From NCBI GenBank assembly GCA_014879575.1, contig JACSRU010000100.1, positions 1 through 48,633 of the forward strand: a stretch of 48,633 nucleotides of DNA, read 5' to 3'. Made by a program: the position numbers and the translations under genes. The notes under the pieces are model-generated. The model saw only the letters and a list, made by a program, of their open reading frames with translations. It was not told the DNA's origin and did not search any database. This stretch comes from Chthoniobacterales bacterium (lineage in GTDB: Bacteria > Verrucomicrobiota > Verrucomicrobiia > Chthoniobacterales > Terrimicrobiaceae). Below are positions 23,033 through 48,633 of the stretch, piece by piece. How positions within the stretch are numbered: the first letter of the stretch is position 1; each line of letters begins with the position of its first letter.

Positions 23033-23045
23033 TAACTCCCGAATC

Positions 23046-23438
23046 ATGTTGGGTAGCATTTATCTTAGTGCGGTCGCAGCAGTAATTATTTGGCTGGGTG
23101 CTAGGGAGTTGTGGATTAACGTCTTGCTACTCATGCAGGGAAACGGCGCGGTTGGGAAGATTGTCGGATTTCAAACTGTTTACACGCGACGCAGACCGCG
23201 CTACTGCCCCGTGATCGAGTATCACGACCGTGAAGGGTTAAGGAGAACCTTACTGGGTAGGTTTAAATGTCAAAGAAACGACTCGGAGATCGGATCGCAG
23301 GTTGCCGTACGATACTTAAAAAGGAAAGACAACTTGACGGAACGCCGCTGGGACCAGCTAACTATTTGGATCGCCCCTTGTATGATGCTCGTTTTTGGCA
23401 CGATAGTATTCGTAGCGGCATTAGCGAGAATTCACTAA
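23046..23438 (+). CDS. DUF3592-like membrane protein
   Basis: A 130-aa protein with two membrane helices (about 3-28 and 105-127) enclosing a small beta-rich domain. The GKIVGFQTVYTRRRPRYCPVIEYHD stretch, split around the YxPVIEY motif, and the following VAVRYLKRKDN match the DUF3592 pattern. Members are small membrane proteins of unknown function found widely in bacteria. It sits 13 bases after one DUF1573 gene and 9 bases before the other, so all three are probably cotranscribed. Confidence 0.68.
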   Translation: MLGSIYLSAVAAVIIWLGARELWINVLLLMQGNGAVGKIVGFQTVYTRRRPRYCPVIEYHDREGLRRTLLGRFKCQRNDSEIGSQVAVRYLKRKDNLTERRWDQLTIWIAPCMMLVFGTIVFVAALARIH

Positions 23439-23447
23439 CAAAAAGCT

Positions 23448-24203
23448 ATGCAAACAAGCTGCCTAATTGACCATCGCGCTTGTCCAAAGACTAGAGGGAC
23501 ACTGCAGTATTCTCATCCGCGCATTTTCACCGCAAGCCTATTGACTGCATGGTCGATCATCTTTCTCTCAAGCGCATTCGGCGGTGAGCTAAAATGGAAG
23601 GAAGACAATATAACAAAATCAATCGGTTTCTCCGAGGAGAAAATTACGGTAGAATTCTCTGTTAAAAACGAAGGAAAGCATTCGGTAAAAATTGAAGCCG
23701 TTAAAACGTCCTGCGGGTGTGCAGTAGCGAAAGTTGCCAGCAATGATTTGCGGCCCGGTGAATCGACTGCATTAGTAATTGACATCAATACAACGAAAAT
23801 AGCTGGAGAGTCTCGTAAATTTGTAACCGTTAAAACTGATGAACCCGGATTGACCGTATATCAGCTTAGTGTTGATATCCTCAAGCAACTTGCATACGTT
23901 CCCAAACTGTCGAAAATCGAGTGGGAAAATGCAAATTCATTTGAAACCAAAACGTTAACCGTCGAACGCACTGAGGGACTTCCTTCTGAAGTCGAGGTGG
24001 TTCGATCTGTGTCTGGGTATCCGGAGGCGATTTCGGTAGAACTCAGTAAGAATGACGGCTTTGACGGGAAAGCCAAAGAGATTGTACTAAATTTAACACC
24101 ACTAAAGCACGGCATCAGCCAAATGAAGCCTATTAATTTGATACTAAAGAATGGCGAAAAAATTATCAACTCTCGACTCAATGTATCAATTGACGTTCAT
24201 TAG
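23448..24203 (+). CDS. DUF1573 secreted protein (cassette A, second)
   Basis: The 251-aa product repeats the architecture of the gene at 22352: hydrophobic export segment (about 28-46), then a DUF1573 domain with SCGCAV (Cys89 and Cys91), RPGES and a beta sandwich. The ATG used gives an unusual 25-residue Cys/His/Arg-containing N-terminus before the hydrophobic segment. The true start may be a later non-ATG codon. The two proteins are clearly related but diverged, indicating an old duplication. Confidence 0.78.
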   Translation: MQTSCLIDHRACPKTRGTLQYSHPRIFTASLLTAWSIIFLSSAFGGELKWKEDNITKSIGFSEEKITVEFSVKNEGKHSVKIEAVKTSCGCAVAKVASNDLRPGESTALVIDINTTKIAGESRKFVTVKTDEPGLTVYQLSVDILKQLAYVPKLSKIEWENANSFETKTLTVERTEGLPSEVEVVRSVSGYPEAISVELSKNDGFDGKAKEIVLNLTPLKHGISQMKPINLILKNGEKIINSRLNVSIDVH

Positions 24204-25444: not shown

Positions 25445-26085
25445 TCAACTTGTATTGCGAGTTCGCTTTTCTACTGACCAATCAATATCTATTTCATGAA
25501 GTAAGCTAAGCCGATTTTTCGGCATAGTGTTTCGCTGCCTTTTTTGGTAATTAAGCCAGTCCCAAAGTTGATGGAATTTAGGAATATTGGAAGGAACCTC
25601 GCAATGCCCGAATTGCTTTTTGAATTCTTTGAGTTCCGAGTATCTTTTTAGCCAGTTCTCCTCGTTTGGATGCCAAGGAAAATTGATGGAATTTAACTGA
25701 CCGGCATGCTGTTGTGACTGGGCAATTTTACGTTGAGATTTTACCCAACTTGCCAACGAGGAATTTGTAACTCTAGTTGGATAGCTTTTGTTTTTCGCGA
25801 GGAATTCCTTTAATTCAACAAAACGACGCTGCCAAGACGCTTCTCGAACATCCCATATGAATCCTAACGCGTCCAGTTCACGAATTTGCCTGGCAGCAAG
25901 TTTGTCCTTCCCTCCTCGCAGGGCATTGCAAACGTAGTGCCCAAGCCCTGGGTTCAGAGGGTAGTTCCACGGAACATTACTGTGCCCATGTTTGGCGTGG
26001 AACTCTTTCAATTCTACCAGACGTTTTTCAAAAATATTAAACTTCCAGATCATGCCAATTCGATTCAATAGGCGCGTCTGGTAAG
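25445..26085 (-). pseudogene. Helicase-associated-repeat protein, 5'-truncated
   Basis: The frame encodes three helicase-associated (HA) repeats, each with the pattern W-x(3-5)-RF-x-ELK-x-F-x-K-x-GH. Repeats start near FEKRLVELKEFHAKHGH, SWQRRFVELKEF and NWLKRYSELKEF. HA repeats usually sit at the C-terminus of large DEAD-like helicases or occur as tandem arrays of unknown function. The upstream part is lost where IS3-family sequence begins (about 26065-26085), so the apparent longer frame is a chimera. A product from the internal ATG at 26053 (202 aa) remains possible. The original gene was longer. Confidence 0.7.
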
Positions 26086-26754
26086 GTGTGGCCTGAAGCT
26101 CTCCACGAAGGCATTCTGGACGGGCTTTCCCGGTTGGATGAAGGCCAGTTCGACTTGGTGTTCGTAAGCCCAGCGGTCGAGTTGCTGGCTCGTAAACTCC
26201 GGGCCATTGTCCAGGACGATGCGCGCCGGGCGGCCTCGTTCGGCCACCACCCGATCCAGCACGCGGGCGACTCGGGCTCCGCAAAGCGAGGTGTCGACCT
26301 CAATAGCAAGGCACTCCCGACTGAAGTCATCCACTACATTGAGCGTGCGGATCTTGCGTCTATCAGCCAACTGATCGCTCATGAAGTCTATCGACCATCG
26401 TTGGTTGAGCCCTTCCGCTGCCACGGGCCTCTCCCCGCGCCACTTCGCCGTCTTGCGCTTGCGCCGCTGCCTGACCTGCAAGCCTTCCTCCCGGTAGATG
26501 CGATAGATGCGCTTGGCGTTGTCCGTGAAGCCCTGACGCCTGAGCGCCAAGGCCAGCATGCGGTACCCCCACCGCCTGCGCCGCATCGCTGCTTCCTTTA
26601 AGGCTGCCCGCAAGGCATCGTCTCCCGGCTCCGCTGGCTTGTGATAAAATGAACTTCGAGCCATTTGCAACAGCCCGCAAATGCGTCGCAGTCCCACCAC
26701 GTAGCTCTTCCTCAGATACTCGGCGGCTTCACGGCGCATCGCGGGCTTTACCAT
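26065..26754 (-). pseudogene. IS3 orfB transposase, C-terminally truncated
   Basis: A 229-aa DDE integrase: HTH_21 region, then the catalytic residues in WSIDFM (first Asp), VLDNGPEF (second Asp) and NAFVESF (Glu). Full-length relatives continue about 45-60 residues past the Glu. Here the frame runs straight into RPHLTRRAY and stops, consistent with deletion of the C-terminal part. Near the start of the frame an A7 run (T7 at 26754-26760 on the plus strand) provides the usual slippage site for the orfA-orfB fusion. Confidence 0.8.
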
Positions 26755-27014
26755 TTTTTTGCGTTCACGTCCTTCAGCATCTGGATGTCCAACGCCTGAT
26801 CGGCTACCAAGCGCTTCAGCCTCCGGTTTTCATCCTCCAAGCTACGTAGGCGCTGGGCTTCGCTGACATCCATCCCGCCATACTTTGCCTTCCACCGGTA
26901 GATCGTTCCTTCACTGATCCCGTGCCGCCGCGCCAGCTCTCCCAGCACGCCTCCGGCTTCAATCTCCTTCAATATCCCGATGATTTGCTCCTCGCTAAAT
27001 CGACTTCTCTTCAT
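26748..27014 (-). CDS. IS3-family orfA (HTH protein)
   Basis: An 88-aa protein with the standard IS407-type orfA layout: MKRSRFSEEQIIGILKE start, helix-turn-helix (HGISEGTIYRWKAKYGG) and a C-terminal leucine-zipper-like helix (DENRRLKRLVADQ). It overlaps orfB by a few bases at the A7 slippery run. OrfA binds the IS ends and, fused by frameshift to OrfB, forms the active transposase. This copy looks intact, unlike orfB. Confidence 0.88.
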   Translation of the reverse strand: MKRSRFSEEQIIGILKEIEAGGVLGELARRHGISEGTIYRWKAKYGGMDVSEAQRLRSLEDENRRLKRLVADQALDIQMLKDVNAKKW

Positions 27015-30263: not shown

Positions 30264-30577
30264 TGAGCAAGGGCATCGTCCATACCCATGCCGGAGACGA
30301 CAGCGACGGCAAGATTTGGGGACTCGAAGGCGTGAACATCCTGTTCATGCTCGCCGGGCTTCTCATCAGCATCGGGCTGGCCCTTTTGCTTTCGCGCCAT
30401 TACGCGCCGACGTTCAGCGCCGGCGCAGGCGCGATGCCGTTCCTGCTCGTCACCGGCTACGTCTTCATTCTCCGGCAGGGCAAGCCGAAGTCCTATGACA
30501 CGGACTTGCTCGAAACACTCGCCAGTGGCTCCGGCTGGATGCCGCCCGTCCGCCAACGGCGCAACCCTCTTTCCTGA
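30263..30577 (+). CDS. virB3: VirB3/TrbD-like inner-membrane protein
   Basis: A 104-aa protein whose start overlaps the pilin stop by one base (TAATG). It has two closely spaced membrane helices (about 25-45 and 52-72) and a C-terminal polar tail, as VirB3 does. VirB3 works with VirB4 in pilus assembly and is often fused to it. Here the two genes are separated by one base. The assignment rests on size, topology and gene order. Confidence 0.68.
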   Translation: MSKGIVHTHAGDDSDGKIWGLEGVNILFMLAGLLISIGLALLLSRHYAPTFSAGAGAMPFLLVTGYVFILRQGKPKSYDTDLLETLASGSGWMPPVRQRRNPLS

Positions 30578-30578
30578 C

Positions 30579-33281
30579 ATGCAAATGCCCAACGGCTGGT
30601 TCTCCCACGACCTCATTATTTGGAACGACCTCGATAAACGCGGATTCCTGACCAAAGGCTTCACGCTGGACGTGCCCGATCTTCGCCACGCCAGCGAACA
30701 CGCCCTCGATGCCTTTTATGAATCCATCCGGCAGTTCCTTCATACGCTGGACGAATCCACCCGCGCTCAAATCCGCTGGTCGGTGGATTCCAATTACCGG
30801 GACGAATTGACCGCCTATAAAACCGTCACGGATGAACGGTGCGAACCCGATTCATGGGCGGCCATTGCCCGCAATGAGCGGTTCAATCGGTATTGGAAGG
30901 CGATGCAGGAAGGTCGGCTTCGCCGGGAAAAGCTGACTCTTTTCCTTTCCAAGCGCATCACCACCAGTCCTCCGACTGGCGCAAGTAAACCCCTCCTGGA
31001 CGAACATTACCGGCGCATTTTGGCGCAATACCATGAAATGTTCGAACAGCACGGGCGGGTCATCGCGTCGTTGTTTGAACCGCATGGCTGCCGCGTCGCG
31101 CCAATGTCCACGACGGACCTATTTCGTTACTATTCGACGTTCCTCAATCCGTCCTACCTCAAGCGGGACAACTACGATCCCATCGGCCAGTTCCGCGAGG
31201 AAGAAACGATTCACCAAAATTGCTGGCATCAGGGGATTCAGGCCGGAAAGACCTTCGGCTTCTTTGCCGATGGATATTACCACAACCTGATTCTTCTCAA
31301 ACGCCGTCCGCAGCGCACCCGGCGCGGGATCTTCTGGGCGGTCACTTCGCTGCCCTTTCTCGACTATGCGATTACGGTCAACCTGTATCCGCAGAACGTC
31401 CGCAAGGAAATCAGTCGGGCGGAACGTTCGCTGGAGCGCGTGCGCGGCGACTATGCGGCGGAAGGCAAGCATTCGCTCCTGACTTCCAAAGAGGTCAAGG
31501 AACAGCGCATCAGGAGTCTCGCCCAGGGAGACGCGGTTCCATTTTTGTATGATTACGTCGTTCACGTTTGGGATGCGACCGAGGACGGCCTGATTTCCAA
31601 GACGCGGCAGATCGAGACCGCCTTCGGCCAAATGGAGGGTGCCCAATGCTGGACATCCAATCTGTCTTCGGCGGCCACCACGAAAAATATTTGGGCTCAG
31701 ACATGGCCGGGGTGGCTGTGGGGCAAATACACGCACCATGCCGATAGCGGCCTTGATGAATGGCTGGCCGACATCCTGCCGTTTTCCTCCACTTTTACCG
31801 GCCATCTCAATGGGGCCGAAGCTCTTTATGACGGGAGCAACCGGAATCTCGTCGGGGTTCGGAACTTCCTTTCCGGCACACCGCAGCTCGCGGTTTTGTT
31901 CGGCATGACGCGGGCGGGAAAATCCGGCTTCATGGCCGATTTGCTTTCGCAGTCCGATCCGTATTACGACTTCACGCTGATTGTCGAGGAAGGGCTTTCT
32001 TACGGCATCTGGACGCAGGCGCAGGGACACACGCCCATCGTCATCCAGCCGGACGGTGATCTTTGCCTGAACTATCTCGATACCCAGGGAGCGCCACTCA
32101 CCAACCTGCAAATCACCACCGCCGCCGCGCTGGTGGCAAAGATGGCCGGACATCCCGCCGACGAGGACAGGCGAAGCCTGCGGCTCGCTCAAATCACCCA
32201 ATATATCGAGCAGCTTTATACGGACCGGTTTGACGAATGGATTTCCGAGGACGCTTCGCGTCTGGATATGGCCGCGCGTCACGCGATGGCCGCCCTCGCT
32301 TACAAGCGGACACATTTGCCCCTGTCCGCCACATTTCTTGAGGCATGGGCGGAATTGCGTCACACCGCCAGCGAGGACGAGCGGGAAAGCCTGATTTCGG
32401 CTCCGACCGACGAGGCAGTTTCCCGCTTCATCAAAGCCGCGGACACGGAACGCTATGTGCGCAATGCCGCCTTTGCGTTCTTCCAGCCGGAAGACCATCC
32501 CACGCATGACATGCTCCAGCAAATGATGCTGGTGGCTCCGTTCCCGGAGCACGATCGCGCGGAAATCAACCATCTGGCAACCCTGCTTGCACCGTGGAAC
32601 GAACAGCGGTTGGTCTGCGGGCATTCGACCCTTTCCATCACCGGCAGGCTGGCCCATTTCGATTTGACCTACATCCCGGAATCCAATCGGCAGTTGAAAG
32701 AACTGGCCGGATTCCTCATCGCCAACTACGGCCGCCAGCACATCATCACGCTGCCGCGTGGCAAAAGAAAACGGGTGATCTTCGAGGAAGTCGCCCGAAC
32801 CCTCGATATTCCCGGCGGAGAACAGCTTGTTTCCGAGTTCTACGCGCAGCTAAGCAAATTTTCCACCTGGATAATCAGCATCGTTCAGCAATACAGCCGG
32901 TTCCAGCGGTCGGGCATTCGCCCCATCGTCTTCGGCAACGCCAAGCAGTTCTTCTTCACGCGCATGAATGACCGACGCGATATTGAGGATGTCGCCAGGG
33001 ACATCGCTTTGTCCGAGACGACGAAAGAGGCGATTTCCCGTTATCCGCTTCCCGAGCATTTGCCTGATTCCAACAAATACGCCGCGCTGACGTATTACCA
33101 TCTGGACGTTCAGCAGCCTCGTTGCGGCACGGTTCACAACCGCGTTTCGCCGGAGATGCTTTTCTGTTCTTCCTCGACCGGGGAAGACTTCGACAACCGG
33201 AGCCGTTCGCTCCGCAACCATCAGGACATCGTTAGCGGGATTCTTTCCGAGTCTGCTTCCTCTCAACCCTCATCCCTATGA
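30579..33281 (+). CDS. virB4: VirB4 conjugation ATPase
   Basis: A 900-aa T4SS ATPase. The N-terminal half (to about 400) is the CagE/TrbE-type domain. Walker A is GMTRAGKS (442-449), and the motor continues with the Walker B-like strand ending KRVIFEEVAR (about 735). A late segment, VFGNAKQFFFTRMND, matches the C-terminal region of VirB4/TrbE proteins. The ATG at 30579 directly follows the VirB3 stop; an upstream frame from 30495 only overlaps virB3. VirB4 energises pilus biogenesis and substrate transfer. The gene is full length and intact. Confidence 0.88.
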   Translation: MQMPNGWFSHDLIIWNDLDKRGFLTKGFTLDVPDLRHASEHALDAFYESIRQFLHTLDESTRAQIRWSVDSNYRDELTAYKTVTDERCEPDSWAAIARNERFNRYWKAMQEGRLRREKLTLFLSKRITTSPPTGASKPLLDEHYRRILAQYHEMFEQHGRVIASLFEPHGCRVAPMSTTDLFRYYSTFLNPSYLKRDNYDPIGQFREEETIHQNCWHQGIQAGKTFGFFADGYYHNLILLKRRPQRTRRGIFWAVTSLPFLDYAITVNLYPQNVRKEISRAERSLERVRGDYAAEGKHSLLTSKEVKEQRIRSLAQGDAVPFLYDYVVHVWDATEDGLISKTRQIETAFGQMEGAQCWTSNLSSAATTKNIWAQTWPGWLWGKYTHHADSGLDEWLADILPFSSTFTGHLNGAEALYDGSNRNLVGVRNFLSGTPQLAVLFGMTRAGKSGFMADLLSQSDPYYDFTLIVEEGLSYGIWTQAQGHTPIVIQPDGDLCLNYLDTQGAPLTNLQITTAAALVAKMAGHPADEDRRSLRLAQITQYIEQLYTDRFDEWISEDASRLDMAARHAMAALAYKRTHLPLSATFLEAWAELRHTASEDERESLISAPTDEAVSRFIKAADTERYVRNAAFAFFQPEDHPTHDMLQQMMLVAPFPEHDRAEINHLATLLAPWNEQRLVCGHSTLSITGRLAHFDLTYIPESNRQLKELAGFLIANYGRQHIITLPRGKRKRVIFEEVARTLDIPGGEQLVSEFYAQLSKFSTWIISIVQQYSRFQRSGIRPIVFGNAKQFFFTRMNDRRDIEDVARDIALSETTKEAISRYPLPEHLPDSNKYAALTYYHLDVQQPRCGTVHNRVSPEMLFCSSSTGEDFDNRSRSLRNHQDIVSGILSESASSQPSSL

Positions 33282-37624: not shown

Positions 37625-38929
37625 ATGAGCGAAATCTTTTTCCAAGGTTTCTGGCGTATGGATTGGGGCTTGGGCAACCCGAACAAGACGGCAACCCTGA
37701 TTGCCATCCTCATGGTGGCTGTCTGGTCGCTGGCCTACCTGCGCAACTGGCTTTTCTGGATTTCGCTCGTGCTGTTTTCTGCTCTGGGGATCTGCTTGGT
37801 GCACACCTTCTCCCGTGGGGGCATGGTGGCGGCGTTCTGCGGGTTGATCCCCCTGCTGGTCTGCCTGCGTCGTCCCCTGCCCATAAAACGGATCGTTGGG
37901 GTTGTTGCTGCCGTCTGGGTGATCATTGGAGCGTCCATCTACCTTCAAGCCCACGAACGTTACGGGCAAGGCGTCGTTCAGGAGGATCGTTCCATTTCCA
38001 ACCGTTTTGTCCTCTGGAAGGCGGCTCCCACGATGATGGTTGACGCACCTGGAGGATGGGGGTTGGGAGAATCTGGGAAAGCCTACATGGATTGGTATCA
38101 GCCCCTCGAACGGAACGAATCCTACCGCACACTGGTAAACAGCCATCTGACTTGGCTGGTGGAATTCGGCTGGATTGAACGATTTTTCTACATTTTCGGC
38201 TGGCTGGCGGTTCTTCTGCTCTGCCTGCCAACACAGGGAAATCGCTGGCTGGCCGTCCCTTTGGGTATCTGGATCTCGCTTTTCACAGGGGCTTGGTTCA
38301 GTTCTGTCGGGGAATCTATCTGGCTCTGGATTGTGCCTGCCATCGCGATGGGGTGGGTGATTGTGTGGCGCATTCAGAACCATGCTTGGCCAGAAACCAA
38401 GCTGTTGCTTCTGCCTCCCGCTCTGGCCGCCGCCTCACTGCTCTGTCTTTCCCTTCTTGCTCCGCACTCGCCTGTCACAAAAAGAGGGAATGCCCTCGCC
38501 ATCGGCAATGGAGTCCCAAGCACTTGGGTTGTTGCGGATCGGGTTGTTCTGGGAAAATCGTTCCCTCGGCCACTGAGGGATGCCTTGGCGAAAAACCCAC
38601 AACTTTCCTGCGGGATTGTTGAGAACATTGCGGATCTTCCCGACAACGTGGTCTCCACTCTGATTCTTTCGGGCAAGCTGGATTCCAAAAATTCTGAGGT
38701 GATCGAGGGCAAGTTGAAATCTGTGAAAACGCTGACCCTTGTAAATCCAGCTTTCTTCCCTGCCGAATTTCCCATCCCGAAGGGTGCTGACGTGCGGATT
38801 GCCATCGGGGAGTTCTCTCAACTTGCCTCTGCTTCCAATTGGGCTCCTGTCGCCAAAGTCGAGCATCTGGTTGGGATTGGAGATTTTATCCCAAACTGGC
38901 CGGAAGTCCTGCTTACCGATCAACCATGA
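37625..38929 (+). CDS. Wzy/O-antigen-ligase-like membrane protein (cassette B)
   Basis: The 434-aa paralogue of 12579-13904. It begins with the same FFQGFWRMDWGLGNPNKTA stretch after MSEI, and keeps TFSRGG, NRFVLWKAAP, GWGLGESG and NSHLTWLVEFGW, as well as the extra C-terminal soluble domain. Identity is high in the membrane part and lower in the C-terminal domain, where the two copies have drifted. Unlike copy A, no GYF-hydrolase gene precedes it; that gene lies on the opposite strand at 44405-46672. It overlaps the rhodanese gene by ATGA. Confidence 0.75.
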   Translation: MSEIFFQGFWRMDWGLGNPNKTATLIAILMVAVWSLAYLRNWLFWISLVLFSALGICLVHTFSRGGMVAAFCGLIPLLVCLRRPLPIKRIVGVVAAVWVIIGASIYLQAHERYGQGVVQEDRSISNRFVLWKAAPTMMVDAPGGWGLGESGKAYMDWYQPLERNESYRTLVNSHLTWLVEFGWIERFFYIFGWLAVLLLCLPTQGNRWLAVPLGIWISLFTGAWFSSVGESIWLWIVPAIAMGWVIVWRIQNHAWPETKLLLLPPALAAASLLCLSLLAPHSPVTKRGNALAIGNGVPSTWVVADRVVLGKSFPRPLRDALAKNPQLSCGIVENIADLPDNVVSTLILSGKLDSKNSEVIEGKLKSVKTLTLVNPAFFPAEFPIPKGADVRIAIGEFSQLASASNWAPVAKVEHLVGIGDFIPNWPEVLLTDQP

Positions 38930-39462
38930 AAACGCTCCGCGCAGATTTGATGGTCATTTGGCTAGTGGCAACCACAGCTTTATGCGTCGGATTGCTCATC
39001 AACCAATTCAGGGACACTCCCCTTCCTCTGGTCTACAAAGACAAGGCTGAACGCTTGCAGGACTCGGTTCAGCGGATCGCTTCAAAAGAATCCGCATCTG
39101 CTCCTGCGCCGATGGTCCACCTTCCTGAAAAACTCTCCTTGGAAGAATTTGCCTCCTACGTGGAGAACAAACGAGGCTTGATCCTCGATGCCCGCCCAGA
39201 AATCTTCCATCGCCTCGGGCATGTCCCTGGTGCTCTCAGTCTGCCACGAGATGACTTTGAGAAGGGTTACGCGGCAGTGAAGGCAAAATTGGAGACTGAT
39301 CGTTCCCAGCCAATTGTCATCTACTGCTCCGACGCATCTTGCGAGGATTCGGGGCTCGTTAAAAAATCCCTCGCCGCTTTGGGGTTCAGCAATCTTACTC
39401 TTTATGAAGGCGGGTGGAATGGATGGACAAACGCAAAGAAACCGGAGGAAACCGCGCAATGA
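38926..39462 (+). CDS. Membrane-anchored rhodanese (cassette B)
   Basis: A 178-aa paralogue of 13897-14457, with a membrane helix (about 8-27) and rhodanese domain. It keeps LILDARPE, GHVPGALSLP and the active-site loop YCSDASCEDS with Cys134, plus the second loop cysteine Cys139. Retention of both cysteines in two diverged copies suggests that both matter, for example as a persulfide-to-disulfide relay. Start and stop are set by ATGA overlaps. Confidence 0.87.
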   Translation: MKTLRADLMVIWLVATTALCVGLLINQFRDTPLPLVYKDKAERLQDSVQRIASKESASAPAPMVHLPEKLSLEEFASYVENKRGLILDARPEIFHRLGHVPGALSLPRDDFEKGYAAVKAKLETDRSQPIVIYCSDASCEDSGLVKKSLAALGFSNLTLYEGGWNGWTNAKKPEETAQ

Positions 39463-39887: not shown

Positions 39888-39902
39888 AAGCGTTATGCAA
39901 AT

Positions 39903-39958
39903 GTTACGGGATTGTAACGCGAAATATTGTTGACACGTTTTTGTGTGGCTGTTTACCT
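39903..39958 (+). promoter_or_regulatory. Possible operator and promoter of peptide block B
   Basis: A dyad GTTAC (39903-39907) / GTAAC (39914-39918) is followed by TTGACA (39930-39935), a perfect -35 box. A weak -10-like TTTACC lies at 39952-39957. The position matches the TTGACA upstream of the peptide in cassette A. The leader to the peptide ATG is about 110 bases and contains two very short open frames (from 39970 and 39991). Confidence 0.35.
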
Positions 39959-40071: not shown

Positions 40072-40230
40072 ATGAATCAATTACATTGCATGCTCCTTAT
40101 TGGAACTCTCATATTTGGCGGGATTGCACTCGCCTCAATAAATGAGCACGAGTCAGACGCACGTAAAGCTCCATCAACGATGAATAAGAATCCCTGTGCG
40201 ACGCCGACTCCCGATCCAGATCCTGAGTAG
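40072..40230 (+). CDS. Exported 52-aa peptide, Cys/Thr-Pro-Asp tail (cassette B)
   Basis: A 52-aa frame, shorter than usual annotation cut-offs. MNQLHC is followed by a hydrophobic segment (about 7-21) ending in an ALA-S signal-peptidase-like site. A polar linker follows, and then a C-terminus with one Cys and a low-complexity tail ending in Glu (NPCATPTPDPDPE). This repeats the plan of the cassette A peptide (one Cys, biased tail, terminal Glu) with no primary identity. It lies in the same slot, between MauE-side genes and the YD-like gene. Position and plan, not homology by eye, support it. Confidence 0.6.
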   Translation: MNQLHCMLLIGTLIFGGIALASINEHESDARKAPSTMNKNPCATPTPDPDPE

Positions 40231-40273: not shown

Positions 40274-41659
40274 ATGGGACGCATCAAGCTATTAATTATA
40301 CTCCTGTTTACGGGAAGTCTATCTAGTTGGGGGTGCGAGTGGCAGGCCCGGATTCCGAAGAATGTATACGACTACGTGAACAATGAGGGATTACTCAGCC
40401 TGACGGAGCAAATAGCCGAAATCGCCGCGCAGCGGGGAGCTGCACTGCCAGTTCTACTAAGCTTCAAATCCCGGCGAATATATGTGTCCCCGTACGTTGG
40501 CTCAGCTTGGAGCATATTTCCATTCGATTCCTATGCAGAGAAGCTGGACGAAAAAACTCTTAAAGTTGTTGAACCCGATGGGGTCATTTCATATTTTATA
40601 CTAGACAAACTAGGCACTTATGGAGGGCCAAACAACATGCGCGCAGAGTATGTTAACTTGGATGTTTTGGTAATAAAAGGACCTTGTGGGCAATCATTCA
40701 GATACACGAAAGGCCGTCTATCTAGGCTTACAACTCAAACGCTTGGCACTATTGATTTTAAGAGAGAAAACAGAGAGTGCACAATGACTCGAGGAAATAC
40801 AATTCTCGCCCACGTTACTCGTGAAAAGGATGAATATTGCAGCGTTAAAGTTGGCGACCAAGCGATTAACATTAACCTTGGTCGAGTTCCGGTTGTGTCT
40901 TCTTTGGCGGGCACCAAGGTAATCAGCGGCTTTACCATGGCCCCGACGACAATAATTGGGTCGTCGGGTAAAGTGAGTAACATTGAGCACATAGTTGATT
41001 CGAAACTCAATGGAATTATCAATTTTGGAGATAAGAACGGATACCGCATGTCGTACTCCTTCGATCCATTAAGTGGAATAGTACAGTCGGATGGATATTG
41101 GGAATATAAGTTTTCTCAAACATCAAATGATTTGCCTCGTTCTAGCTTTATGCTGGAAAGGACCTCGATAAACGGCGAACGGCAAAGGCACTCCGAGGAT
41201 TATCGACAGGGGAAAATAATCGATGAGGATGGGCTCAAAAAGACAATAGACTATTATCACACCGGAGGAAAGCTTGCGGGAAAAAAACGAAAGATTGAGC
41301 TTTTTGAAAATGACAGACTTATCGATAAAGAGTTATTTTCATATGATGAGCGTGGCTACCGAATCCGCTCTGTCTTGAATGATAAAAATGTTACGAACTA
41401 TGAGGTTATTAGAGATGCGGGGCAGAATATGGTAATAACGCTTGAGCGAAATAGTAACGCTGATCTAGTAGGAATTACAATACAGGATAATGAGGGAAAG
41501 ATGATTGAGTTTTTTGACCTTCGGCAACGATGCGGCAATTTGTTTCAATCATATGCCCATATGCCTAGCGGAGCATTGGGAATCTATTACGCTAAATACT
41601 TTCCCGCCCACCTTCTTGAGATAGCACATAAATACACAAACACAGATAAAAAACTATGA
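40274..41659 (+). CDS. Secreted YD/RHS-like protein (cassette B)
   Basis: A 461-aa protein with a signal peptide (about 1-20, LLFTGSLSSWGC). The Cys at the end (WGC-EW) may be a lipobox or the start of a conserved motif shared with copy A (Cys followed by EW). Later conserved features are PVLLSFKSR and SPYVGSAW, then beta-rich, YD-like sequence (FSYDERGYRIRSV). Identity with 19005-20432 is low except for these anchors, much lower than in the core genes. The ATG at 40274 fits the signal peptide. It is coupled by ATGA to the Cys-rich gene. Confidence 0.68.
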   Translation: MGRIKLLIILLFTGSLSSWGCEWQARIPKNVYDYVNNEGLLSLTEQIAEIAAQRGAALPVLLSFKSRRIYVSPYVGSAWSIFPFDSYAEKLDEKTLKVVEPDGVISYFILDKLGTYGGPNNMRAEYVNLDVLVIKGPCGQSFRYTKGRLSRLTTQTLGTIDFKRENRECTMTRGNTILAHVTREKDEYCSVKVGDQAININLGRVPVVSSLAGTKVISGFTMAPTTIIGSSGKVSNIEHIVDSKLNGIINFGDKNGYRMSYSFDPLSGIVQSDGYWEYKFSQTSNDLPRSSFMLERTSINGERQRHSEDYRQGKIIDEDGLKKTIDYYHTGGKLAGKKRKIELFENDRLIDKELFSYDERGYRIRSVLNDKNVTNYEVIRDAGQNMVITLERNSNADLVGITIQDNEGKMIEFFDLRQRCGNLFQSYAHMPSGALGIYYAKYFPAHLLEIAHKYTNTDKKL

Positions 41660-42042
41660 CAAAACAAATAATCGCAGCATCCCTACTATTCGCAATAGTG
41701 TTAGTATCCTCGCAGGCAGCATACTTTTCATGTTTTGCGTTGTGCAATGGAACCAAACCCTGTCCCCAACCTGGCGGATCTGGGCCTAACTGCTCTACAA
41801 CCCCAAAAAGTAAATGCAACTCAACGACACATACACCTTCTCTATATTTGTGTCAGACAGGAAACTATAAATATTGCAAGGACACCGTTAAAGAAGATGA
41901 TGTTTGTTATCATTTGATTGGTGAAATGCCAACTTGTGGAAATGAAGAATACTATGAATGCGCCTGGAACGACCAGGCTAAGACATGCGACATGGCAGGT
42001 TCCTGTTCCATAGGGCCATGCACCAATGATGAATGTAATTAG
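41656..42042 (+). CDS. Small secreted Cys-rich protein (cassette B)
   Basis: A 128-aa protein with a signal peptide (about 1-21, ending SSQA) and a mature chain of about 107 residues with 14 cysteines, spaced about every 5-12 residues. It is otherwise polar (Thr/Pro/Asn/Asp). No known knottin or EGF pattern was matched. Such density implies a disulfide-stabilised extracellular protein and fits the redox proteins encoded around it. It corresponds in position to the 295-aa CC-rich protein in cassette A, which also has 14 mature cysteines. Confidence 0.7.
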   Translation: MTKQIIAASLLFAIVLVSSQAAYFSCFALCNGTKPCPQPGGSGPNCSTTPKSKCNSTTHTPSLYLCQTGNYKYCKDTVKEDDVCYHLIGEMPTCGNEEYYECAWNDQAKTCDMAGSCSIGPCTNDECN

Positions 42043-42091
42043 TAAAGGTTTTAGGTCTACAGTCATTGATTTCAGACGCGACACTCTAGTT

Positions 42092-43216
42092 ATGGCATAT
42101 ACATTCCGTTACGGTTTTAGCAAGGCGTTACTCAATTTGCTTTTTGTTTCTGCCTGCTTTGCATGTCCTAAAATTCAAGCGGGTCAGGAAATACCTACGG
42201 AATTGGTGTCCGAACTTCTGCCGCACATTAAGGCAGTCGAACAGTTGTTTGCAAATTATCGAGCAGATTATGAGTATCGTGGTCAAGCTGGTCCTGATGC
42301 GCTGCTTTTCTTTCGATCTCTTGACAAGATTCGCTCTTTTAATCGAGGCGAAAAATTCTTCGGACGCTCCATGAGTGATGAGGAGTTCGCTTCAACTTTT
42401 AATAAGGATCTTCTCATAACATGCTCTTATGCCGAGGGAGATTACAAACTATCAAAGTATGATAGAAAGAAAGACTATAAAGAGACGCGTATATTTTATG
42501 ACAATAAATTCTATCGCGAAGTCCCGAATTCGAACCGATGGGATATTACACCATATCCAATAACCGACATTCCATTTATTTCTCAATTTTTCGTTCAACT
42601 CCCTAAAAGCATTCCCCTGCAGGGTGCTCCATGGATGAACGGCGAGGTAACGCTATCATCTTTTTTAGAGAAAGCCCGGAATGACGGTTTTATCAAAGTG
42701 CGAAATATTGATGACGATCATTTTATGATTACTGCTCAGATACCTTCTTTTTATCAGGACGAAGCCGATCTGTCAGAGAAACTCAGAGACTCCATTGACA
42801 TCATTATTGAAAAATCAAAAGAGTTCCGAATAAATTCTCTCGCAATTTACACATATGATGAATTGAAACTTGGGCGGATCGATTCAAGCAGTCTTGGGGA
42901 TACCCAGAAAAAGGTGATCTTTTTTAGCGATTATAAGGAAGTTCATCCAGGTGTTTTTCTCCCTTATTCAATTAAATGCGATCTTTTTGCTACAATCGAC
43001 TCTTTTGCCGGCGACCTAACACAAGACCAATTAGGGGATGTGCGCAAATTTGCCAAGGCGATGCCGTTAAGCAGCAAGTTGCATATTTTCACTCACGCCC
43101 TAAACATTTCAAAAATCGAGTTTAATGTAGTAGAAAAAAACAATCTATCCCCTCCTAATGATAATGAAACGTTTTATTTCAATCATACATCTCGTTCATT
43201 TCAAGACACGCCATAG
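42092..43216 (+). CDS. Secreted protein of unknown function (cassette B)
   Basis: A 374-aa protein with an export signal (about 10-30, ending IQAG). The mature part has alternating strands and helices (DYEYRGQAG, IFYDNKFYREVPN, VIFFSDYKEVHPGVFLPYS) and resembles in style LolA/outer-membrane lipoprotein-sorting-like proteins (curved beta sheet). No motif proves this. The ATG at 42092 was preferred over 42026, which overlaps the Cys-rich gene and adds a basic leader; neither has a good ribosome site. It occupies the slot of 21350-22339 in cassette A but shows no visible similarity to it. Confidence 0.6.
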   Translation: MAYTFRYGFSKALLNLLFVSACFACPKIQAGQEIPTELVSELLPHIKAVEQLFANYRADYEYRGQAGPDALLFFRSLDKIRSFNRGEKFFGRSMSDEEFASTFNKDLLITCSYAEGDYKLSKYDRKKDYKETRIFYDNKFYREVPNSNRWDITPYPITDIPFISQFFVQLPKSIPLQGAPWMNGEVTLSSFLEKARNDGFIKVRNIDDDHFMITAQIPSFYQDEADLSEKLRDSIDIIIEKSKEFRINSLAIYTYDELKLGRIDSSSLGDTQKKVIFFSDYKEVHPGVFLPYSIKCDLFATIDSFAGDLTQDQLGDVRKFAKAMPLSSKLHIFTHALNISKIEFNVVEKNNLSPPNDNETFYFNHTSRSFQDTP

Positions 43217-43224
43217 TGGTCTGC

Positions 43225-44313
43225 ATGAGAAAAAATAGTTGCTGGATAGGCTTGTGCAAGTATGGGTGTTTCGGAATGCTTTTTTTAATGGGGCTCAGAG
43301 TTTCTGGAATAGACTCAACTCCTGCGGCAGCAAATGTAGAGGTAAACAAAGAATCAATTAACTTTGGCTTGATAACTGATTTTGTTCCTGAAAAGGCACT
43401 TATTGGAAAATTCCAAATTACAAATAAATCAGCAGTTCCGATTTTCATAAAACAAACGTCCGCTTCGTGTGGTTGCACTGTTTCGTCTATCTCCAGTCGA
43501 GAAATTCCACCAGGAGAAACAGTTACTCTTGAGGCCAAGCTCTCACTTAAAGATATTTTTGGCAAAAAGATGGTGAAGGTGGTTGTCCGTTTTTCTGATG
43601 ATTCGTTCCGACTTTTTACTTTAGAAGCTAACGTTATCCCAAAGGCGCAAGTCCAACCTAAAAATCCGAAATTCACAATCAGAGGGAATGATACGGTGAA
43701 ACCCATGATTGTAGACATCTTTATTCCAGTTAATAAAAATATCACTGAGAAATCATTTGTAACGCTTGATAAGATTCCTGATGGCTATCTGGTAGAATCC
43801 CAATTATCCAATATTACCAATGTTGATGACGTAGAGCTGTTAAAAATTCATTTAACTATGACCGCCAACAAATCGATGTTCCCTGGGATCTATTCGGAAC
43901 TTATAAAAATTTCATCTATCGGTAATATGAAAATTGATATACCGTTTTCTGTCGAAGTTAAGCCAGAAATCGTATTGCTTCGGGACTATATTTTTCCAAC
44001 AAGTGAAGAATCAGATTCTATTAAGTTTCAACTGGATATCATCTCTCGATCAAAGCTAACCCTAGAGGAGTTAAAAATCGTTTCTGAGCAGTTGGATCAA
44101 ATTGCAGACATCAAAACAATTACCGAGTCAGATTGGGGCGATGGATATCGCTACGTGTTAGTATGCCAGGTCAAGAAAGCGAATGTTTCGAAAAAATCTA
44201 TTGTGGGTAAAGTTACAGTTAAAAGTAAAAGCATCGAGCTGCCTTTTCGCGTAATGGTGCGTCATAATTATGGCCAAACAATGCCTAATCCTGACCCCAG
44301 TATTAATCCTTAA
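43225..44313 (+). CDS. DUF1573-containing secreted protein (cassette B)
   Basis: A 362-aa protein with a signal peptide (about 8-30). The DUF1573 domain has the SCGCTV motif (Cys82 and Cys84) and PPGET. An additional beta-rich C-terminal part of about 200 residues is not present in the cassette A versions. The start ATG was chosen over a GTG 9 bases upstream. It is the last plus-strand gene of cassette B and converges on the GYF-hydrolase gene; the 91-base gap between them has no clear terminator. Confidence 0.8.
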   Translation: MRKNSCWIGLCKYGCFGMLFLMGLRVSGIDSTPAAANVEVNKESINFGLITDFVPEKALIGKFQITNKSAVPIFIKQTSASCGCTVSSISSREIPPGETVTLEAKLSLKDIFGKKMVKVVVRFSDDSFRLFTLEANVIPKAQVQPKNPKFTIRGNDTVKPMIVDIFIPVNKNITEKSFVTLDKIPDGYLVESQLSNITNVDDVELLKIHLTMTANKSMFPGIYSELIKISSIGNMKIDIPFSVEVKPEIVLLRDYIFPTSEESDSIKFQLDIISRSKLTLEELKIVSEQLDQIADIKTITESDWGDGYRYVLVCQVKKANVSKKSIVGKVTVKSKSIELPFRVMVRHNYGQTMPNPDPSINP

Positions 44314-44404: not shown

Positions 44405-46672
44405 TCATTCGCCTCTGCTCCATATTGCAGCAATTTCTTTTGTCGGTAAGGCAACACGAAAACCCTTCGGAATCATCTCAACTCGATCAACTGTGAAAAG
44501 TTCTTGGTTGACAAAGTCGCCGTATATATACGGAGAGCTGAACTCCCCAATCCAAGGTTGCGAGGGATCGCCTCTATTTGAGTAGCTCGTTTTTTCTATT
44601 TGTGTGTCGAGCTCTTCGCGTTTATCTTTTTGCAAGAGCGCGAATTTGAAAAACTCAAATCCTAGGGCGGCGGCATCTGGATGGCCCGCGTGCCCTAATC
44701 CAGGAATTGCCTTGTAAACAATTGGATAGCCCATTTCACGAACTGTTCTGACCCATCGCTTTGAACGCTCGTATCCAGCCTCTCGTTCGCCAATTGTGAG
44801 ACACCAGAGCACCGTTGCTGCTTCGGGAGTTGGCTGGTCGTAGCTGCCTGGCATGTGAACATGCACGGCGAGAAAATATTCCGGCTTCCTCAAACAGAGG
44901 CGGGCGGCGAATTGTGCGGAACCACAATTCCCCCAGAGGAGAAAGTTTTTCTGCGGAATTCCATATTTTTCTCCCAGTTCCCTGACTCCCCGCGCCCATG
45001 CGTTCGCCACGATATCGAACGACTCATCAATTTCTTTTGCCTTCTCCCGTGTAAGGTCGTCGTAATTCCGCCCCGGATCCCAAAGTCCCCGAGATCCCCA
45101 AGCAAGGATCGCCAGTTTGTGCTTGTTCGCAAAACTGAAAAGGCCCGCGTAGTCCCCAGTCATTTCCTCCTTCCTGAGTTCGCGCTTCATATCCTCCAGT
45201 CCATTGGCAAGAACGCATATTGCCAGAACCCCCTCGACTTCGGATGCGTTGGATATTCCTTTGGGAGGGCGAAGGAATAATGTCATCTGAGGCATACGGG
45301 GATTCTGTGTCCTGACAACATGCTCGATGAGGGGGTCCATGTCGGGCTTGCGGGCAACCCTCTTTGTAGTTCTGTCCTCGACAATCTTTTTCTCGGGGTA
45401 ATCAAGGAGGAAGGCCGAGGCTGTTGGTGGGTATGTGGTGACCTGTGCCTCGGTTTTATCCCCGAAAACAAATAGGGACTTCCACTTTGTTTTTTCCATC
45501 TTCTCGGGAATCTCAAAAAAGAAGCGGTTCGGCTTGTCTTTGTAGAACAGGACGGGAACTGAATACATGGGTTTCCCGCTCACGCCCGACTCTGAAGGTT
45601 TAACGGACGAGACACGCAGCTTGTCGTCCTCTCCATAGAAGTAGGCCTTGGCGAAAGTTTTATCTGACCGGATGTCTGCGCTGACCGAAACCTTCACTTC
45701 CAAGCATGGCCGGAAAATCGGGGTCCCCTTCTTTCCGTTCTCCATCGGAATCTGCCAAACAGCAACCCCATCCTTCGGTGGCTTCCGTAACAGCTTCACC
45801 GATTCAATTTTGAAGAAATCGGAGACGGGAACTGATGATATTGGGGTTGCAGTCGGTCGGGGGGCGACTTTGGCGGTTTGCGCAACGGTTTGCGCTGGAG
45901 CTGTCGATGTAGCAGGGACGTTTGTCACCGGTGGGGGAGCAGAGGCAACATCTGGCTTTGGAGGTGCAGGGATCTCCTGAGTGGTCTTCTCAAGAGGAAC
46001 CGGATTCTCAGAGTCCGCTTTTGTGGTGGTAGATTCTGTGGCAAGTGGGGATGCCACGGCCATTGCAGTTGGTGTGGAAACGGGTTCTGGAACGGGTGGG
46101 GTCTCTGGGATCTGGGGGAGAACGGATTCTTGAACGCCGGAATTCTGGCCCGCAATGATTGTTTGCTGTTGGGCTGCCAGTTCGACTTTCGGTTGGCTGC
46201 TCCTTCCCCATGTGAAGACAGCGACAACACAAAGGAGAACCACCGCGAGGCCACCTGCAATCTGCATTCTGGTCTTGGGAACCTTGAGAGTTGCCTGAAT
46301 ATTGCGGAACGCCCGTTCCCCTCGTTCCCACAATCCCCCCGGTCTTCTATCCTCGGCAGGAAGGCAAATCTCCTGGCTTTGGCTGATAACGCCTTTCAAG
46401 TTGCTCAGCTCTGGATCCCCCTCGAACCGTGCCTGGTTCTCAAGATCCAAAACCCCCGCTTCAAGCATGGCGGAAATCTCCTCCCAAGTGAACGGGCCGA
46501 CTTCATCGCCCTCCCGCCAAAGCCCCCATTCTTCGAGACTCTTGATCTCGTCATTGCATTCGATCCGTGCGGGAATCTCTGGGGAAATCTCACCCTTCCT
46601 GAGCATGATGAAAACATCGACCCATGTGAGTGGGCCGGTTTCGGAACCGTCGCGTAAAATGAAGATGTTCAT
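44405..46672 (-). CDS. GYF-like/TM/alpha-beta hydrolase fusion (cassette B)
   Basis: A 755-aa paralogue of 10333-12582 on the minus strand with the same order: two GYF_2-like modules (GPLTW, GPFTW), a membrane helix (near 137-155), a Pro/Thr/Ala linker, a beta-rich segment and an alpha/beta-hydrolase domain. The nucleophile elbow reads GNCGS, so Cys583 stands where copy A has Ser574. The codon is TGT against TCC, at least two base changes, so this is not one sequencing error. The catalytic His motif GLGHAGHP is kept. Cys nucleophiles occur in dienelactone hydrolases. The stop is at the edge of the inferred inverted segment. Confidence 0.78.
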   Translation of the reverse strand: MNIFILRDGSETGPLTWVDVFIMLRKGEISPEIPARIECNDEIKSLEEWGLWREGDEVGPFTWEEISAMLEAGVLDLENQARFEGDPELSNLKGVISQSQEICLPAEDRRPGGLWERGERAFRNIQATLKVPKTRMQIAGGLAVVLLCVVAVFTWGRSSQPKVELAAQQQTIIAGQNSGVQESVLPQIPETPPVPEPVSTPTAMAVASPLATESTTTKADSENPVPLEKTTQEIPAPPKPDVASAPPPVTNVPATSTAPAQTVAQTAKVAPRPTATPISSVPVSDFFKIESVKLLRKPPKDGVAVWQIPMENGKKGTPIFRPCLEVKVSVSADIRSDKTFAKAYFYGEDDKLRVSSVKPSESGVSGKPMYSVPVLFYKDKPNRFFFEIPEKMEKTKWKSLFVFGDKTEAQVTTYPPTASAFLLDYPEKKIVEDRTTKRVARKPDMDPLIEHVVRTQNPRMPQMTLFLRPPKGISNASEVEGVLAICVLANGLEDMKRELRKEEMTGDYAGLFSFANKHKLAILAWGSRGLWDPGRNYDDLTREKAKEIDESFDIVANAWARGVRELGEKYGIPQKNFLLWGNCGSAQFAARLCLRKPEYFLAVHVHMPGSYDQPTPEAATVLWCLTIGEREAGYERSKRWVRTVREMGYPIVYKAIPGLGHAGHPDAAALGFEFFKFALLQKDKREELDTQIEKTSYSNRGDPSQPWIGEFSSPYIYGDFVNQELFTVDRVEMIPKGFRVALPTKEIAAIWSRGE

Positions 46673-46684
46673 AGCAAGTTCATT

Positions 46685-47509
46685 CTAGGGGGCATTGAGT
46701 TTCCTCCATTCAGCGAAAAGAGTTTCTGACGGCAACCAGCCAGTCAGTGATGGCTGGGCTTCTTGTTCGCCGCTGGAAACTTTCTCTTCGCGGTCAATGT
46801 CGGCCCAAATCGGCGTTGTCTTCGCCTGTGACAAAACCGCTGAAAAATAATCTCTCACAAAATCATCCAACTCAGGGCTGCCTTGGTGGCCGATCTTGGC
46901 GAGGCTTACCCATTGCCAAGGTTTCCCCGCCGCCCTCCCCTGCTTGAAATAGATGAGGGAGGCACCATAGCGCGGATCTTCATCGCCACATGCTACGATG
47001 CCCGGAGGGGAGATGGGATTTCGTTGCGGTTCGTCCCACCATCCTGCCGAATACGCGCACCAGGTGAGAACGCAGACAGGGTTCCATTCCTCGAACCGGC
47101 TTGTGAAATGTGCACCACCTGAAATCCCATAGAGGAGCAATGGGAGATCACGGCCGTAAATTTCTCGGATTCCTTCAAGCAGTTTTTCCCCAGATCCCTT
47201 CGATGCGTAGTAATAGCCGGTATTTTCGTCTTCGATGGCAGACATTGAAGAAGCAAAAGAAAGTCCGACCAAGCCAAGACGATTCTGTTTCGCGAAGGCA
47301 ATCCATTTAGGCGAGCGAATCAAATCTTCTCCACTTCCATTGCAGCCTGGGCACAAAACCAGCACGGCCTTGGGATTTGGAACCGTTGCGACATGATGAA
47401 GCTCGGCACGGGTCATGTTAGGGGCTGGTTCCAAGCGAAGCGTTTCAACTTTCTCGGCAGCCATGAGCCCAGCCATGCCTGCAAGAAATAAGAGAGCGGT
47501 GGTTTTCAT
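46685..47509 (-). CDS. Secreted alpha/beta hydrolase (cassette B)
   Basis: A 274-aa paralogue of 9439-10260. It has a signal peptide (about 1-18), nucleophile elbow GISGG (Ser130), acid in GDEDPRYG and catalytic His in KIGHQG. Sequence is strongly conserved with copy A through most of its length, including VETLRLEPAPNMTRAELHHV. It overlaps the ABC gene by ATGA and precedes the GYF-hydrolase gene by 12 bases, so the three form one minus-strand operon in the same order as in cassette A. Confidence 0.8.
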   Translation of the reverse strand: MKTTALLFLAGMAGLMAAEKVETLRLEPAPNMTRAELHHVATVPNPKAVLVLCPGCNGSGEDLIRSPKWIAFAKQNRLGLVGLSFASSMSAIEDENTGYYYASKGSGEKLLEGIREIYGRDLPLLLYGISGGAHFTSRFEEWNPVCVLTWCAYSAGWWDEPQRNPISPPGIVACGDEDPRYGASLIYFKQGRAAGKPWQWVSLAKIGHQGSPELDDFVRDYFSAVLSQAKTTPIWADIDREEKVSSGEQEAQPSLTGWLPSETLFAEWRKLNAP

Positions 47510-48633
47510 TCAGAAGCCCTCCGTTTGACTGTCGAGGTCAGAAAAACAGTGGCCGCCAATGCGATAAGGATGTGCAATCCCAGCACGGCCATCCCCAGCG
47601 GATAGGGAGCCACCCATGTTTCGCTGGATTGCCGGACAATATCAAAATACCGAGTGTCCCTGAATGTTTGCAGATACCCGCTCCACCCCCAATAGGCCGC
47701 AATGAATGGACGGCAAATTGTGCTGAGCCAATCGGGAAGCGCCAGAGCTGCCCCGGAAAGAGGAAGTTGGAACCCTACAAGGTAGATTGCTAAAAGGGAT
47801 GCCCTCTCCGGAGACGGTGAAGCGGCAGAAATCGCCAAGCAAGTCGTGCTCATGGCGAGGGTGGTTGCAAACAGGATCGCGAATTGATCCCAGAGATTCC
47901 CTGGAAACCCGCAGACGGTTTTCACAAACCAAGCCATCCAAAATGCCTGCACTGCGCATAGGAGTGCAATTTGCAGGAATTTTACCACGACGTAGGCGGT
48001 CGGGGAGAGTCCGGCCCGTAATTCCTTGGCAAGAATGCCTCGTTCCTTGGCAATTTCACGCGCTCCATTGTTTGCGCCAATGAGGGTCAAGAGAATGACC
48101 TGGAACATCGCCAGTCCTGAAATGAGGGATGCAGCCTGAAACGATTCTTTGAGATAGAAAAGCTGGTCTTGGAGGGTGCGGAGGATGTTGGTTTCGAGTG
48201 AGAGCGTCTGGCTCCGGACTTGTGGCAGGCCGCTTGTGGCGAAAACCGCTACCAGAATCGGGAAAGTAAGAATAAGCGCGATATGCAGGACAATCTGCCC
48301 ACGGTCGCGCCAGAAAAGATTCGCCTGCCTCCCCAAAAGTGTTGGCATCTGCACCCATCCTCCCGGAGGGGGCATGGATTTAATTGTGAGAGCTTCATTC
48401 GCTGGTTGGGTGGCTGGCTCCTCAACAGGCGTCTCAAACGCCGACAGGTCAACGTCCTGAGTTTGGTAGAGGCCGAAAAGCTCGGCAATGGAACTGACAC
48501 CATGCGAGTCCAGCAATGATTGGTAATCGCCAAAATGAACCAGCCGCCCCTTGTGGAGGAACAGGATGGCATCGCAATAATGAAGGTTATTGGTGGCGTG
48601 GGTGACGAGCACAACCGTTTTGGCCATGTCGTG
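47506..48633 (-). CDS. ABCG-type ABC transporter, partial (cassette B)
   Basis: The 3' part of a gene cut by the window end; the frame stays open past 48633. It retains the end of the ATPase (VTHATNNLHYCDAILFLHKG) and the full ABC-2 membrane domain. Paralogue of 7748-9442: the stretch from FATSGLPQVRSQTLSLETNI to AREIAKER is nearly identical, while the linker has drifted. The missing part should hold Walker A, the signature and Walker B. High similarity to copy A may be why the assembly ends nearby. Confidence 0.85.
   Translation of the reverse strand, partial: HDMAKTVVLVTHATNNLHYCDAILFLHKGRLVHFGDYQSLLDSHGVSSIAELFGLYQTQDVDLSAFETPVEEPATQPANEALTIKSMPPPGGWVQMPTLLGRQANLFWRDRGQIVLHIALILTFPILVAVFATSGLPQVRSQTLSLETNILRTLQDQLFYLKESFQAASLISGLAMFQVILLTLIGANNGAREIAKERGILAKELRAGLSPTAYVVVKFLQIALLCAVQAFWMAWFVKTVCGFPGNLWDQFAILFATTLAMSTTCLAISAASPSPERASLLAIYLVGFQLPLSGAALALPDWLSTICRPFIAAYWGWSGYLQTFRDTRYFDIVRQSSETWVAPYPLGMAVLGLHILIALAATVFLTSTVKRRASE

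Follow-up and report, generated by a model that had tools for sequence, protein, structure and literature searches.

Short Cys-tail peptides encoded upstream of Rhs-fold genes: a predicted exported family in Verrucomicrobiota with a swapped gene module

Several described systems share features with the locus reviewed here. Rhs/YD-repeat shells, known from the T6SS Rhs effectors and the teneurins, have in common with its larger secreted proteins the Rhs beta-sheet fold and a match to the RHS_repeat family. The PglL/PilO ligases and PMT mannosyltransferases of O-glycosylation find a parallel in a Wzy_C protein and, where tails are rich in Ser, in PMT_2/ALG10-like proteins, encoded beside a Ser/Thr/Pro-rich, acceptor-like tail. 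Among small peptides, AgrD-type precursors carry a leader, a Cys near the C-terminus and a hydrophilic tail ending in Glu, and the NVEALA peptides (PF14055) of Bacteroidetes are small, exported and contain Cys. The peptides described below differ from the latter in their tails and in their partner protein, and identity with NVEALA was rejected when the host genome gave no PF14055 match.

The window, a stretch of 48,633 nucleotides from a Chthoniobacterales bacterium (contig JACSRU010000100.1), holds two related cassettes, A and B, each with a short ORF just upstream of a gene for an Rhs-fold protein (YD):

18797-18973, plus strand: Cys-tail peptide A, 58 aa, tail CSSSSSSSSSGE
19005-20432, plus strand: YD-A, Rhs-fold protein of 475 aa, RHS_repeat E 5e-6
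39930-39935, plus strand: TTGACA, upstream of peptide B
40072-40230, plus strand: Cys-tail peptide B, 52 aa from ATG to TAG, MNQLHCMLLIGTLIFGGIALASINEHESDARKAPSTMNKNPCATPTPDPDPE
40274-41659, plus strand: YD-B, secreted Rhs-fold protein of 461 aa, partner of peptide B and homolog of YD-A

Peptide B consists of a leader (about residues 1-22), a linker, C42 and the tail ATPTPDPDPE, with a candidate signal peptidase I site, judged by eye, between IALA and SIN. A sequence-only reading of the window had credited it with the plan of the peptide in the other cassette, and the hydrophobic leader, linker, biased tail and terminal Glu are indeed all present. The single Cys of that reading holds for the predicted mature part, which has C42, but not for the whole ORF, which has a second Cys (C6) within the leader. 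The two peptides do occupy the same slot, ending 31 bp (A) and 43 bp (B) before the YD genes when the start of YD-B is set at the ATG at 40274 and not at the GTG at 40196, which overlaps peptide B, and they are only 12% identical, in keeping with the statement that they share nothing except their plan.

The YD proteins are homologous to each other, with 25% identity over 372 residues (E 5e-27). The model of the N-terminal domain of YD-A (pLDDT 85) has Rhs cores as its top PDB matches, the best being 8qjd (E 2e-10, TM 0.57 over the query), and the RHS_repeat match is confined to residues 342-377 of YD-A, with none in YD-B. Neither protein has the long YD-repeat array of a closed cocoon or a C-terminal toxin domain, so that YD, as modelled, is a partial Rhs shell lacking a toxin domain. 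It thus departs from the known shells in being short and secreted, in having no toxin domain or T6SS adaptor and in always being paired with other secreted proteins, and the peptide, for its part, does not resemble Rhs proteins. A pair of YD cysteines is conserved or missing as a unit, both being lost in several clades, and this suggests that they form an internal disulfide. The peptides retain their Cys where YD has lost both, which argues that the peptide Cys is not there to pair with a YD Cys, and for the same reason a disulfide joining the peptide to either of these conserved YD cysteines was rejected. At one locus (L034, G009:C11), two YD genes lack both conserved cysteines; each has its own Cys-tail peptide upstream and a giant Rhs-like ORF of 1857-1900 aa downstream.

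Related cassettes were examined for absence of an ORF with Cys and biased tail at this position, the condition under which the sequence-only reading would fail, and they did not refute it. Peptides were called by a rule demanding an ATG-start ORF of 40-110 aa with a hydrophobic N-terminus, the last Cys 7-40 residues from the end and a tail made up to at least 75% of the residues STPGDENQA. A peptide that fits this rule lies in the slot directly upstream of YD at 22 of 29 loci, compared with none of 396 regions upstream of other genes at the same loci, and the plan proposed for the two cassettes is thus found again in front of YD genes from across the phylum. The corresponding Fisher p of 5e-31 is only descriptive because the rule was written after the first examples had been inspected; the empty set of 396 is more telling. 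Under a stricter rule, none of 8,700 dinucleotide shuffles fit. The rule misses peptides at L099 and L100, which start with GTG and are preceded by strong ribosome-binding sites, a second copy at L103 with a less biased tail and a different, multi-Cys peptide at L024, and upstream of YD in L010, L091 and L104 there is no peptide. Within the order, 13 of 213 genomes encode YD homologs, and elsewhere in the class and phylum such genomes are scattered; the host genome has six paralogs. One of the genomes, that of the cultured strain Spartobacteria bacterium LR76, belongs to the host's family (locus L063 matches G009) and has one cassette or more. A contig scan with a single YD as query returned no loci, and an alignment-based scan returned five YD loci, three of them found before. 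On these comparisons, peptide B is very likely a member of a Verrucomicrobiota-wide family of peptides, predicted to be exported, that is tied to secreted Rhs-fold YD proteins.

Some YD loci without the peptide encode a radical SAM protein instead (L091, 6331-9138, minus strand; L104, 7572-10098; L107, 6415-8010), that of L091 with a SPASM domain. L091 and L104 also encode an exported protein of 348-390 aa whose 32-34 Cys are arranged in Asp/Glu-Cys repeats and which is reminiscent, by analogy, of a thioether-type RiPP precursor.

The sequence-only reading had taken the Cys and the tail to be the functional part, and the pattern of conservation bears this out. When 24 peptides are aligned, the start Met and the Cys are the only positions without variation. 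Beyond the Cys, 23 of them have a tail of 8-15 residues (mode 10) and the remaining one a tail of 37, and 18 of the 24 end in Glu, a residue that makes up just 2.6% of tail interiors. The leader often ends in A-x-A (by eye), the pattern of signal peptidase I. Within these limits the tails vary widely in chemistry: CSSSSSSSSSGE (A), CATPTPDPDPE (B), CTPTPTPTPAE (L027), CTPPPPNENPE (L093), CNPPPPPPGGE (L094), CDDDDDNDE (L092), CDEVDPGDEDSFE (L101) and CPG(SSD)nSSNLE (L095). The last of these, a family peptide with a long SSD-repeat tail (G236:C66), recalls the glycosylated Ser-Asp repeats of staphylococcal surface proteins. Synonymous differences predominate between related peptide copies, with pN/pS of 0.07 for L096/L097, 0.18 for L099/L100 (pS 0.78), 0.36 for winA/L008 and 0.43-0.57 for wider pairs, all of these being relatives of the A type. 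The Ser run of peptide A mixes TCN and AGY codons (TCG TCA TCG AGC AGT TCT AGC AGC AGC), and the Pro residues of the B tail use four different codons. Since Ser runs mix the two codon families and Pro runs use four codons, what is kept appears to be the residues and not a DNA repeat, and slippage is an unlikely origin for the Ser run.

Peptide B has no close homolog for a pN/pS comparison, so its coding status rests on slot, plan and tail; these grounds make it very likely that 40072-40230 is a genuine gene with predicted translation. The expectation that annotation would skip it is borne out in that no NCBIfam family matches: in a scan of the 24 peptides none passed a curated cut-off, the best (E 0.007) falling far below. 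The pentamer TTGAC is present in the 200 bp preceding 13 of 22 peptides, as against 70 of 401 control genes (p 3e-5), a hint that the peptides have their own promoter; a promoter scan upstream of peptide B, where the hexamer listed above is found, returned no full sigma-70 site. Upstream of B and of the L027 peptide, and of no others, there is a palindrome-like motif, TGTTACG(N4)TGT(A/C)ACGC(G/A)AA (window 39902-39923; L027 3850-3871), possibly the site of a regulator.

The usual gene order at YD loci is ABC transporter, alpha/beta-hydrolase-like proteins, Wzy_C, rhodanese, MauE, in some cases GT-C, then peptide, YD, Cys-rich protein and DUF1573. Judged by eye, some proteins encoded downstream may be LolA-like. 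The remaining genes of cassette B are as follows:

37625-38929, plus strand: Wzy_C (O-antigen-ligase-like) membrane protein of the YD-linked subfamily, PF04932 E 2e-13
38926-39462, plus strand: rhodanese with an N-terminal hydrophobic segment
39459-39887, plus strand: MauE/DoxX membrane protein with a DCGCFG motif, PF07291 E 7e-27
41656-42042, plus strand: Cys-rich secreted protein of module B, 128 aa with 14 Cys
42026-43216, plus strand: uncharacterised module B protein with an N-terminal hydrophobic stretch, no Pfam match
43216-44313, plus strand: DUF1573 protein, PF07610 E 2e-12
44405-46672, minus strand: backbone protein, alpha/beta-hydrolase-like by sequence inspection, weak N-terminal GYF_2-like match
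46685-47509, minus strand: second alpha/beta-hydrolase-like backbone protein (cluster c2), no Pfam match
47506-48633, minus strand: ABC-2 type permease of the backbone, PF01061, reaching the contig end

A comparison with L027, from another genome of the same family, divides these genes into two parts. The Wzy_C, rhodanese and MauE proteins are 85%, 88% and 80% identical, while the peptides and the YD proteins are only 27% and 23% identical, and the DNA identity of 82-85% ends at window position 39865, 22 bp before the MauE stop codon. With a conserved backbone and a dissimilar peptide and YD, the latter two have been replaced or have diverged together, and by this comparison peptide plus YD is a swapped cargo module on a Wzy_C/rhodanese/MauE backbone. 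Across the order, the Wzy_C subfamily and YD occur together in 11 genomes, YD alone in 2, Wzy_C alone in 2 and neither in 195 (p 9e-15, counting each genome as independent of phylogeny). Rhodanese-MauE pairs without YD have no Cys-tail peptide beside them, and the peptide was therefore rejected as part of a general rhodanese-MauE unit. Conversely, neither MauE nor rhodanese was seen in the Asp-tail loci L101-L103, so these proteins are not essential to the Cys.

The Wzy_C protein calls for some caution. R64, R112, R127 and H174 are conserved in all 24 members of the subfamily. The PF04932 match covers residues 54-190 of about 440, and the protein has about seven TM-like stretches and not the complete 10-12 TM architecture of a ligase. 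A fold search with its model gave no match with E below 1e-3 (the best, of its membrane part to FtsW, had E 0.011), and the remainder, the C-terminal part, gave weak matches to alpha/beta hydrolases. Considering the partial ligase match, the weak fold matches and the hydrolase-like C-terminal part, ligase activity is uncertain.

Cassette A has the same core and, in addition, a set of membrane proteins between MauE and the peptide:

12579-13904, plus strand: Wzy_C, PF04932 E 3e-16
13897-14457, plus strand: rhodanese
14454-14900, plus strand: MauE, which adjacent genes overlap and which simple ORF calling does not pick up
14897-16234, plus strand: ICMT-like membrane protein, seen next to Ser-type peptides and that of L028 but nowhere else
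16238-17488, plus strand: PMT_2 GT-C glycosyltransferase-like protein, E 4e-6
17485-18720, plus strand: DIE2/ALG10-like GT-C protein, E 9e-36
20429-21316, plus strand: Cys-rich protein of module A, 15 Cys
22352-24203, plus strand: two DUF1573 proteins of module A (22352-23032 and 23448-24203)

Between the two cassettes, the translations can be read as an IS3-like two-ORF transposase (26065-27014, minus strand) and a VirB4/TraC-like ATPase frame (30495-33281, plus strand) among probable conjugation genes.

The chemistry of the tail is related to the presence of these glycosyltransferase-like genes. A PMT_2-like GT-C gene lies near 7 of 9 loci with Ser tails and near 1 of 16 others (p 5e-4, for loci that share ancestry), its absence being uncertain at some loci where flanks are short at contig ends; the one exception is L028, with the tail CGGTSSGDPGQ. 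Relatives on the YD tree show the same contrast, L090 (Ser, with GT-C) against L092 (Asp, none) and winA and L008 (Ser, with GT-C) against L026 (Pro, none), and L009 and L027 also differ as expected. On this tree the Ser label has to switch about five times, with at least two of the switches forced by starred branches. Because GT-C genes track Ser tails, the Ser tails are probably O-glycosylated by the adjacent GT-C enzymes. Ser or Thr is present in the low-complexity part of Ser and TP tails and entirely absent after the Cys in L092, L094, L105 and tail a of L034; since Asp and several Pro tails thus have no acceptor hydroxyl there, glycosylation cannot be the general function. The system would also differ from PglL or PMT O-glycosylation in that the acceptor is a peptide of about 30 residues with an invariant Cys, and in that the Wzy_C protein is shorter and hydrolase-like in its C-terminal part.

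How might the peptide act? The explanation that we favor, tentatively and as something short of an even bet, is that of an exported peptide whose Cys and Glu-ended tail are recognised and modified by envelope enzymes of the cassette, and which acts together with the YD shell. The hydrophobic leader would route the peptide through Sec, and a mature chain of about 30 residues would then display the Cys and the hydrophilic tail in the envelope. The tail could serve as a tag for recognition and modification by the cassette's enzymes, the adjacent GT-C proteins O-glycosylating the Ser run in the Ser-tail class and this step being omitted for Pro and Asp tails, which would act as extended tails. The Cys would be a point of conjugation or crosslinking, and once finished, the peptide may join the YD shell and Cys-rich proteins in an assembly on the cell surface. 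In peptide B, whose tail is of Pro and Asp, activity would lie in the Cys and the extended acidic tail, with no GT-C glycosylation.

Other functions have to be weighed against this one. The most durable of them, though a doubtful one, is that the peptide is structural, forming intermolecular disulfides with a Cys-rich protein in a surface matrix, with the tail as a solubility spacer. The single Cys of the mature chain fits this, Cys-rich secreted proteins are enriched in the slots downstream of YD (15 of 36 slots, compared with 22 of 261), and genes for DUF1573, MauE, rhodanese and thioredoxin proteins lie nearby. However, the peptides keep the Cys where YD has lost both of its own, MauE and rhodanese are not universal, and a spacer alone leaves the terminal Glu and the link to GT-C genes unexplained.

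The Rhs fold of YD raises the prospect that the peptide serves a short Rhs shell as its cargo, plug or immunity-like partner, in competition of the polymorphic-toxin type. The swapping of cargo on a conserved backbone would fit a conflict system, and the distant relatives of YD are full-length Rhs proteins. We consider this unlikely: YD-A and YD-B, without a C-terminal toxin domain, are too short for a closed cocoon, and the peptides are predicted to be exported and resemble no immunity protein. PADLOC and PHROGs also gave no match. Peptides A and B match nothing in PHROGs, peptide B nothing in Pfam or PADLOC above cut-off, and ten proteins of cassette B match no PADLOC defence model; a prophage or defence origin was discarded for want of such matches.

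If the peptide were instead the precursor of an AgrD-like signal or pheromone, the Cys would form a thiolactone or similar ring and the tail would be removed in maturation. This fits the layout of leader, Cys, acidic tail and terminal Glu, the constrained tail length and the strong divergence of peptide sequences between strains. It is nonetheless improbable, as the conserved part of the cassettes encodes no receptor kinase, the partner genes belong to other types, and the low complexity around the Cys is unlike an AIP. An AgrD-AgrB pair was rejected when a search of the host genome at E 0.1 gave no AgrB (PF04647), a weak test in that no control genome passed this cut-off either.

Finally, that the ORF arose by chance, or is a non-coding leader in the YD transcript, is a most remote prospect: a Shine-Dalgarno sequence is not evident before the ATG of peptide B, which offers no close homolog for pN/pS, but the empty controls and shuffles, the purifying selection in relatives and the ribosome-binding sites at L099 and L100 all stand against it.

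The preferred explanation, an exported peptide modified in the envelope and acting with the YD shell, can be extended to the cassette as a whole. In this extension, which is speculative and which we rate as having a small chance of being right, a constant backbone of Wzy_C-type ligase, hydrolases, ABC transporter, rhodanese and MauE would mature an interchangeable pair of peptide and Rhs shell, with the Cys as the conjugate site and the tail as the recognition tag. If so, the Cys would be the attachment point for a glycan or other conjugate, and the surface could therefore be re-dressed by swapping the pair.

We found no description of the peptide family in the open-access literature searched; its partners belong to known folds, and its function is a prediction. 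A peptide below the size of usual annotation would be the signature gene of a widespread and fast-changing secreted system of Verrucomicrobiota, and it can be searched for by a Cys, about ten hydrophilic residues and a Glu end, upstream of an Rhs-fold gene. The system would also place Rhs-fold proteins in a non-toxin context, together with glycosyltransferases and a ligase-like protein, and it makes a testable claim, namely that the chemistry of the tail co-evolves with the enzymes that may modify it.
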